Shown: positions 39,047 through 54,827 of the stretch, one piece after another | Numbering within the stretch: the first letter of the stretch is position 1 | How the letters are laid out: every line of letters starts with the position of its first letter | Source of the DNA: Marasmius tenuissimus | Taxonomy: Eukaryota; Basidiomycota; Agaricomycetes; Agaricales; Marasmiaceae | NCBI GenBank assembly: GCA_029532415.1 | Contig: JAQOTA010000047.1 | Location: 1,240,001 to 1,304,000, forward strand | DNA length: 64,000 bases | Direction: 5' to 3' | Program-made: the position numbers and the translations under genes | Notes under the pieces: model-generated | The model's input: only the letters and a program-made list of their open reading frames with translations | The model's database searches: none | What the model was told of the DNA's origin: nothing

Positions 39047-40973
39047 TCAGTACTTAAGCTGAGCAATAACCTCGTCTCGATTCAAGTATCCGCATCTGTC
39101 CCTCAACCTCTCTTTCTGAAGATAATCCTTCGCTCTCTCTCCGTCCAGCTTCGAAAGCCCCGGGTACGGACCACCGACCAGATACACCCCAGCATCAAAC
39201 ATCCCCACACACTCTCATACGCAGGAGCCCATCATTCCAATGTATCATGATTCTCCAGACTCGGCCTCCCAACATTCCCAAACCCACTCCACGATCTCGA
39301 TTGCCTCCTCTGCAACTCATAGTCCTCGGGCCTAGGCTGCACCTTCCCGAGTGCATCGAACGCGCTGAAGTTCCCAAAGACGTAAGGCGCATCCGCGCCG
39401 TGAAACACGCCCATTGCAGCCGGTTGACCGAGATACCCGGGTGGAATCTGATTCTGATCGTAGTAGTATACAGAAGGTATCTCGTCGGCTTCGTACTTCC
39501 TGGCCATGGTATGGCCAAAAAGAAACAAGGGGCAGACAAGCAACGCGTCCCGGAATATCTGTGCCGAGCGGTAGAATCCCGATGGCAGGCCTGATTCTTC
39601 TTTCGGGGGAAAGTCGGAGGAAGGGTATAGATCGAGTATCGTTGAGAGCGTATCATTGGTCAGATCTGGGAACATGGTGCTTATGAAGGTCCTGGTCTCA
39701 TGGGAAGAGTTGAGGGTGGGAGGCGTCAGGATTGTCAAATTCTGGTCAGTCCAACCAATCATCACCAGGATCTTCGGGAACAGTCCCTTTTCGTGAGCTC
39801 CGACGATGAAAGGGAAACAAGTTGCCGTCGACAGTAGAAAGATATATATCCCCGAAATTCTGGTCGGCGGTGGAATCACGCTGGGAAAGGGTGTAGTTGA
39901 GAAGTGTCTGGGAAGGAAGAGCGCGAAGGCAGTCGAGAGATTGGGAGGATTGAGGGCTGTCCGAATCTTTTGAGTCACAACCAGCAAGCCTCACGACGCC
40001 ATTGAAGCTGTCGACTGTGACGTTACTGGTTACACCTAGTTCGAGGGCAGTGAATTGCATGATCGCAGCATGAAATAGCACTAGTCTGCTTCCACCGCAG
40101 GCCAAGACTTGGTTGGCTACGCTCAGTCCTACAACGCAAACATGATTATTATGAGTGAGTATGAAGAAGCACCGAATCAGACGGATCACGCACCTCCAGA
40201 GCTCTGTCCAAGTATTGTCACTCGCTCTGGATCGCCTCCAAAGTATTCGATATTATGTTGCGCTCACTCGAGGGCTGAGCGCTGATCCTTCAATCCGATG
40301 TTCAGTGAGTTATTGGCCCTCAGGGAGTCCGAAATGGCAAAGCCGAATACTGAGCAACGAGACGGAGGATTAGAATGATAATGCCATCCATGAAAATCGT
40401 TCGTTCTACGCACTGTTGAGACGATAATTCATAGCGATATAAACCACCGGCGATTCGTTCTCTACAAATTGGAGCACCAGATTATCCGGTTCATGTCTCG
40501 GGTCATTTCTGCTCCCAGCAAACATGCTGCCTATATAGCGCAAACTTGTTAAACTCTGCTCGTTTGCAAGAGGGGTTGACTCACCCCCATAGATGAACAC
40601 CATAACCGGTAACTTATCCCCCAGCTTCGCGCCTGTGGGCCTGGCAACTTTCAACTTCAAGCAATCCTCGCTCTGATCCCATCCTATACCCGCAGAGCCT
40701 GGAGGCTGAGGACATACTGGCCCCCGTACCGAAGCGTCATACAAAGTCGTGTTGGGAGAGAAAGTGTATAGTTCTGGGTTTCCGAAACGTTCCGCACAGC
40801 CATATGGAATGTTGAAGAACTTTTCTATTTGGTTGACATGTACACCACGGTATGTGATGTTGTTGTGAGTGTCAATGGCGGTTAGAAGAGTGTCCTGGGA
40901 GAGTACCTTTCCCGTGAAGAAAAACTGAGTTCCGAAGGACGAAGAAGACCAACGAAAAGAACATCGGAGACAT
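39047..40973 (-). pseudogene. Type B carboxylesterase/lipase, inactivated
   Basis: Alpha/beta-hydrolase of the carboxylesterase family: signal-like N terminus MSPMFFSLVFFVLRNSVFLH, YDASVRGPVCPQPPG, SEDCLKLKVARP, LPVMVFIYGG, NYRLNS, GDPERVTILGQSSGG at the nucleophile elbow (GQSSG instead of the usual GESAG), GVFHGADAPYVFGN and C-terminal LVGGPYPGLSKLDGERA. Lesions seen: an in-frame TGA at 40266-40264 where the family has Trp (SALE-stop-AQHNIEYFGG); a one-base shift near 39805-39820 between VDGNLFPF and KILVMIGWTDQN; a frame change after HDTL near 39235 before FDAGVYLVGG; and a frame mismatch between the signal peptide and the mature start. The family normally hydrolyses carboxylic esters outside the cell. 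At least two lesions are firm, so no full-length product is expected. Confidence 0.85.
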
Positions 40974-41662
40974 GATGACTTGCGATGGCGCGATAGAAAG
41001 TCCCCAGTATGGCTTATTTATACTCGAATTTGAGTCGAAAAACTAGGGCAGACTCACCGATTAACGACTGTAGGAGCGCTGTGCCATTTCCCATTCGTCA
41101 GGCCCATATAATTTGCCAAACCGATTGATGGATCCATTTGAATAACCCTTTTCTCTTGCATACGAGCGCTCAGCGCTGGTTGGTACCGCAATGAGGTGGA
41201 TGTAGATCAGCGAAGATCAAACAAGACTTCTAATCCAACCCCAACATCCGTGGCTCCGTCGCGAAATAGATCGCAGGACTTCTGGGAGCAAGCTGAGCTG
41301 CGTAAGGATGATACCCAGGCACCGCGAGGAGATGATAAATCGCATACATACTGGCAGCCGCTTGTGTGAACAGATTATTGAACACTAATCCCCAAACTAA
41401 GTCTTGAGTCGATATGAAGTGTGGTCTTCGCTACCATTGAGAGAGGACAAGTTGAAGACAAAGATGATGGTGAGACAAAGCAAAGAAGGTAAGCGCCGGT
41501 AAGTCGCGTCTTGACTTCAGACTCTCACGACACCCTCTACCTACAAAACTAGAGCCTGCGACAGCTGAAAATCTTAGTCTATCCATTAAAAATGCAGGCT
41601 GATTTGTTGCAATTGAATACGGGTGCGTGGAAACGGTCAAAAATCTCTGTATTCCACACTAA
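40974..41662. other. Divergent intergenic region between esterase pseudogene and F-box gene
   Basis: No supported gene; short ORFs only. It should hold the promoter of the F-box gene at 41663. Confidence 0.45.
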
Positions 41663-47189: not shown

Positions 47190-48979
47190 CTACAATGGCC
47201 GGCAAGGCGTCTTTCGCCTCCCGTGGCGTGTACGATCATGACGCGAACGGAAGGGGCGCCCACAGTTTCCACACGGATAGGGCTTTACCCCCTGGTGCGC
47301 AAGTGTATGATCTGTAGAGTATGAAATCATCAACAAAATAGTCAACACTTGAACGAGGAAAAGAAAACTAACAGTGGAGGTTGGCCTGCGAGGTGAAAGT
47401 GGAAACACACCCCCCAACCCCACACTCGTAACGAGGGCTTTTCCGACGGCGCTCGATGGAGGCTTTGGTTACCGCAGAAGATCCGACTTCACAGCGGAAA
47501 TTGTCATTGGTGGAGGGGGTAGGACGGCTCCCGAAGGTCGTCGGGGAACCATGGGCTTGAGGCGGATGTTCTGGGTAGCTCGATCGGCCGTAATGGGGCG
47601 CTACAGATGGCTGATATTTCTGGTTGGCGGCTGACGGGAAGCCGTACGGTTCCGCGCTGAGGAAACTAGAGGATGAGCAAGAATCTTGATGATTGGCAAG
47701 GATACAGATAACCTACTGGACTCCGATATGGTCAGTGTCCACATTTGCTGCAGAAGGCGGGACTTGCAACGGATATTGTCCCAAGCTCCAGCTGCCATGA
47801 TGAGGCGCCGCAGATCGCTTGTATCCCTGGTTAGTGGCTGACGCAAAGCCGTACGAGCTCACGCTGGAAAAACTGGAGGGTGAGCAAGGAGCTTGACACT
47901 TGACAAGGTCACAGGCGACTCACTAGAATCCAGTGGGGCCGGTGTCCACGTCAGCTGCAGAAGTCCGAACTGGCGACAGAAATTGCTCGTAGCTGGAGCT
48001 GCCGTAAGGGGGTGCTGTAAATGGCTGGTTTCCCTGGCCGGTGGTTGGCGTGAAACCGTGTAATCCCGCGCTGGAGAAACTGACGGATGAGCATCCATTG
48101 TATTAGTTGACAAGAATGCAAGTGGCCTACTGGACTCCACTGTACCTGGTACCCACGTTTGCTGCAGAATCCTGTACTTGCGACGGAGGTTGTTCGTAGC
48201 TCGAGTAATGGAACACTGGAGATTGATATCCTTGGTTGGTGGTTGAAGGCAACTCGTACCATTCCTCGCTGCGAAAACTGGAGGGTGAGCAAGGAACTTG
48301 ATAGCTGACAGAAATAGAAACGACTAACTATATTCCAATGCGCCCAATATCCTTGTTTTCTACAGAAGCTTGTCCTTGGGATGGATACTGCTCGCAGCTC
48401 AAACTGCCATGATGGAGCGCTACAGGTTGCTGATATCCCTGGTTAGTAGTTGACGCTAAGCCATATGGTTCCGCGCTGGGGAAACCCGTGAGTGAACAAC
48501 AATCCTATCAGTTGGCGAGGATACACGCGACTTACCAGACTCCGATGTGGCCAGTATCCGCGTTTGCTGTAGAGTGCTGGACCTGCGACGGATGTTGTTC
48601 ATAACCTGAACCGCCATAATAGGGCGCTAGAGACTGCTGGTGTCCTTGGTTAGTGCCGGTTGATGCGAAGTCGTGTGGCTCCTCACTGGGGGACTAAAAG
48701 TTAAGAAGGGAGCTTGATAGCTGGCAAGAATACAGGCGACTTACCTGACTCCGGTGTGACCATCATCCACGTTTGCTGTAGAAGCTCGGGCTTGCGATGG
48801 ATACTGTTCATAACTCGAGTTGCCATAGGGCGCTTTAAATTGTTGATAGCCTTGACTTATGGTCGACGGGAAGCTGTGCGATTCCCCGCTGAGGCAGATG
48901 GGGGGGGGGGTGAGCAGCCGTCTTGGATGATATGAATACACGCAGCGTACTGGACTCCCGTAGGATCTGGTCGACTCAT
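47190..48979 (-). CDS. C2H2 zinc-finger protein with seven-fold exon-repeat low-complexity domain (Z1)
   Basis: Nine exons, 435 codons: 48979-48951, 48888-48745, 48685-48536, 48475-48329, 48268-48131, 48070-47924, 47863-47717, 47656-47373, 47311-47190. Exons 2-7 are 144, 150, 147, 138, 147 and 147 nt, all phase 2 to phase 2, each encoding one copy of a module like FASTTNQGYQQ..APHYGSS then YEQYPSQ.QAS...VD.GHIGV; exon 8 begins with a seventh copy. Exon 8 ends in the first zinc finger (CGVGGCVSTFTSQANLH, split by the last intron) and exon 9 adds YHTLAHQG and a second finger PYPCGNCGRPFRSRHDRTRH ending in C. Family role: DNA-binding transcription factor. The repeat is Tyr/Gln/Ser/Gly-rich and probably disordered. 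Paralogue: Z2. Confidence 0.85.
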
Positions 48980-53573: not shown

Positions 53574-54827
53574 CTACGGAGGTCGACAAGGCGTCTTTCG
53601 CCTCTCGTGGCGTGCAAGGTCATTGCGCGAACGAAAGCGATATCCACATCTCCCACACGGATAGGGACTAACCCCCTCATGCGCAAGCGTATGATCTGTG
53701 AAGCGAGAAGCTCGTTCGTTGGCGAGGCGGTCGACACAAGAAGAAAAAGAAAACGAACAGTTGAGGTTGGCCTGCGAGGTAAAAGTAGAACTACATTCTT
53801 GGAACCCGCATTTGTAAGGGGCATCTTTCTGACGACGCGCGTTGGCGGCTTCGGTTACCGCGGGGGATCCGACTTCACGGCGAAAGTTGTTCTCGGCGGA
53901 GGGGGACGTAGGGATGTGACTTGTAGCATGAACGGGGCGATTTCGGGAGCTGACGTATGGTCCATAGCGCTGTCCGGGTTGGTGTTGCACACCCACGCTG
54001 ATGGCCGTCGGGGAACCATGAACTTGGGGCAGATATTGATGGTGGCCCGAGCTGCCATAATGGGGCGCTGTAGATTGCTGGTATCCTTGTGTGGTGGCTG
54101 ACGCAAAGCTGTATGTTCCCGCACTGGGAAACTGGGGAATGAGCAATCGTCCTGATAGTCGATCAGAGTACAGACAGCTCACTGGACTCTACTGTGGCTA
54201 CTATCCACGTTTCCTGGAGAAGCCTGGGCTTGCGATAGATATTGTTCGTACCTCGAACTGCCATGATGGGGTGCTGGTGGTTGGTGGTATACTTGGTTGT
54301 TGGTCGACGCGAAGCCGTACAATTCCACGCTGAGGAAACCGAAGGGTGATCAACCAGCTTCGGTTGACAAGAATACAAGCGACTTACTGGACTCTGTTGT
54401 AGACAGTATTCACATTTTCTGAAGAAGCCTCCTGGACTTGCGATGGATATGGTTCGTAGCTCGTAATTCCATAGTGGGGCGTTGAAGATTGCTGGTATAC
54501 TTGATTGGTGGTTGATGCGAAGTTGTCTGATTCCGCGCTGGGGAAACCGAAGGGTGAGCAATCATCCTCTCAGTTAACGAAATTTCGTTCGACTCACTAT
54601 GCTCCACCGTGTTCATTACCCAAGTCCGCTGCAGAACCCTGGACCTGGGATAGACATGGTTCGTAGCTAGCTGAGCTACCGCGATGAGGCGCAATTGATT
54701 GCTGGTATCCTTGGCTCGATGCGAGACCGTATGGTTCTACGCTAGAGACAGTGGACGGTAAGCAACCACCTTCGTTGACGAGAATGGACGCGTCTCACTA
54801 GACTAGACTAGAGTTCAGTCGACTCAT
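53574..54827 (-). CDS. C2H2 zinc-finger protein with four-fold exon-repeat low-complexity domain (Z2)
   Basis: Six exons, 318 codons: 54827-54799, 54741-54598, 54537-54388, 54329-54183, 54123-53759, 53695-53574. Exon 1 is 29 nt and starts MSRLNSS, like the 29-nt MSRPDPTG exon of Z1. Exons 2-4 (144, 150, 147 nt, phase 2 to 2) each encode one module (for example VELYGFASTNNQVYHQPPAP then HHGSSRYEQYLSQAQASP). Exon 5 starts with a fourth copy and continues through a polar linker to finger 1 (YKCGFQECSSTFTSQANLN); exon 6 supplies DHTLAHEG and finger 2 (CGRCGYRFRSRNDLARH, last ligand Cys). Likely a transcription factor. It has three fewer repeat exons than Z1. Confidence 0.85.

Follow-up and report, generated by a model that had tools for sequence, protein, structure and literature searches.

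The highly repetitive PEVK region of mammalian titin is encoded by repeated exons, with exon duplication and loss altering its length (PMC6469411). This is the nearest described layout to that of PM082_014312, a zinc-finger gene of Marasmius tenuissimus located on the minus strand (48979-47190) of the window, the 64,000-nucleotide (nt) stretch of contig JAQOTA010000047.1 analysed here. Titin PEVK is a muscle spring, whereas PM082_014312 encodes a putative DNA-binding protein whose N-terminal half consists of seven diverged copies of a ~48-amino-acid (aa) module. The number of exons is also larger in PEVK, for which exon phase and disorder are further points of comparison. Low-complexity domains of the FUS type are rich in Tyr, Gln, Ser and Gly and carry many [GS]Y[GS] motifs. 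The modules of PM082_014312 resemble them in being enriched for the same four residues, but the repeat half is less biased and is built of modules in separate exons; the "FUS-like" label given in the initial annotation is not supported, as the region is not low-complexity by 12-residue entropy and has almost no [GS]Y[GS]. The AGL proteins of the Glomeromycotina are, like PM082_014312, lineage-restricted and fungal, with tandem repeats that vary among relatives; they are cell-surface proteins whose one or two introns lie close to the signal sequence, so that their repeats are not arranged one per exon, unlike the modules of PM082_014312 (PMC8786786).

The splice sites of PM082_014312 were rebuilt from the alignment of its repeat units, giving nine exons (Table 1) and a predicted protein of 435 aa. 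Exons 2-7 (138-150 nt, phase 2 at both ends) encode one module each, and the seventh copy lies at the start of exon 8. The majority form of the 11 copies found in this gene and its sister PM082_014315 approximates xxExYGFASTTNQGYQQSxAPHYGSSSYEQYPSQVQxSxANVDxxxxGV, with conserved columns of aromatic residues or His, Gln, Ser, Pro and Gly. There are eight introns of 59-62 nt, and the introns belong to the repeat as well: a self-match of 66% extends over 1067 nt (E 7e-77), and 25 of 55 intron pairs compared score above every shuffle. Adjacent exons are homologous and of equal phase and the introns lie within the repeat, as in tandem exon duplication, and the repeat half is an unusual but understandable outcome of repeated duplication of this kind. 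It had been proposed that the length of this domain is tuned by exon number. Equal phase is, however, expected because the exons were copied from one exon, and hence provides no evidence of length tuning; the copies are also strongly diverged and their tree is star-like, so that ongoing tuning is unsupported.

The deposited model of PM082_014312 splices three of the eight introns (2, 5 and 6) differently, and applying these alternative sites exactly reproduces the deposited protein of 417 aa; exons 2 and 3 of that model measure 139 nt and 98 nt, neither being symmetric. On sequence grounds the repeat-consistent model is preferred, because all modules stay whole and a weak GTCAGG donor gives way to GTAAGT five bases on. 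Under this model the initial annotation is correct in its coordinates, in the size and phase of the exons and in the number of copies.

C-terminal to the modules are two zinc fingers, of the forms CX4CX12HX3H, interrupted by intron 8 immediately upstream of its His pair, and CX2CX12HX6C, with an atypical last ligand; the finger fold of C2H2 zinc-finger proteins is present, and placement by the Pfam zf-C2H2 cut-off of 25.2 bits is ambiguous. The sister gene PM082_014315 (minus strand, 54827-53574 of the same window), whose translation is identical to its own deposited protein, has four module copies versus the seven of PM082_014312; the fingers of the two sisters are similar, with three residue differences in the finger-2 helix. 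Diverged and more widely spaced copies occur in three further genes, module matches being confined to five genes of the genome, and the related genes have the same start and finger tail as PM082_014312. Protein searches, which were limited in reach, found no such gene in any other named species.

The module frame is free of stops in all 11 module-bearing exons of the two sisters, versus 33 stops in the other frames, and the proportion of synonymous differences (pS) exceeds that of nonsynonymous differences (pN) in 55 of 55 module copy pairs, with a ratio of nonsynonymous to synonymous substitution rates (dN/dS) of about 0.4. By these sequence measures the frame of the repeat exons is under purifying selection. 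Together with the intact finger tail, the start and tail kept in related genes, and a genome DNA search in which all five matches fell inside the PM082_014312 gene group, these values make it very improbable that the repeat region is a decaying pseudogene or non-coding satellite, open by chance.

PM082_014312 most likely encodes a lineage-specific, putative DNA-binding factor, the N-terminal region of which would be disordered, built from the repeats and of unproven function. Of the disordered, FUS-like low-complexity domain originally proposed, the disorder is retained as likely, though weakly tested. The difference in module number between the sisters, the strong divergence among copies and the restriction to one named species in the protein searches would all suit a weakly constrained disordered spacer, in which frame-keeping exon duplication is tolerated and repeat number is without function; this is nonetheless somewhat unlikely, given the selection on the frame and the conserved columns of the module. 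It is also distinctly unlikely that the repeat exons are cassettes, with skipping or alternative acceptors yielding proteins with varied repeat numbers or small insertions. Within the reading of PM082_014312 as a DNA-binding factor, effector valency might be set by how many interchangeable, frame-neutral exons the gene holds, such that exon gain or loss among paralogs and the choice of exons or acceptors in splicing would add or remove aromatic-rich binding modules singly and give graded factors for the same or similar DNA sites, but this proposal is unlikely.

Neither tandem exon duplication nor the two-finger factor is a new kind, and tandem exon arrays are known mainly from animals. No precedent for the two in one fungal gene was found in the open-licence literature searched. 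The seven- and four-module sisters, with their similar fingers, offer a natural comparison for testing if a regulator's strength depends on how many disordered modules it has, and PM082_014312 would be a case of a new effector domain arising through exon duplication.

Table 1. Exons of PM082_014312 and PM082_014315, in window positions.
Gene	Exon	Position	Strand	Length (nt)	Model or basis
PM082_014312	1	48951..48979	-	29	Rebuilt; agrees with deposited
PM082_014312	2	48745..48888	-	144	Rebuilt; deposited end 48750
PM082_014312	3	48536..48685	-	150	Rebuilt; deposited start 48633
PM082_014312	4	48329..48475	-	147	Rebuilt and deposited
PM082_014312	5	48131..48268	-	138	Rebuilt; deposited end 48146
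PM082_014312	6	47924..48070	-	147	Rebuilt; deposited start 48079
PM082_014312	7	47717..47863	-	147	Rebuilt; deposited start 47872
PM082_014312	8	47373..47656	-	284	Rebuilt and deposited
PM082_014312	9	47190..47311	-	122	Rebuilt and deposited
PM082_014315		54799..54827	-		Translation equals deposited protein
PM082_014315		54598..54741	-		Module-copy analysis
PM082_014315		54388..54537	-		Module-copy analysis
PM082_014315		54183..54329	-		Module-copy analysis
PM082_014315		53759..54123	-		Module-copy analysis
PM082_014315		53574..53695	-		Gene model

In self-BLAST, 17 further finger loci in this genome lacked an exon-spaced repeat. Related two-finger C2H2 loci number 82, obtained from 124 matches (E up to 0.1) by merging those within 1 kb, and are often clustered, with 26 on contig C7, 16 on C44 and others on C2, C18, C63 and further contigs. 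The first intron of C21b (L046, about 2852-2919) has an apparent GC donor, GCAAGT; its neighbour C21a has GTAAGC. Elsewhere in the window, an open stretch on the minus strand (40406-41017) matches the carboxylesterase family (E 1.7e-13).
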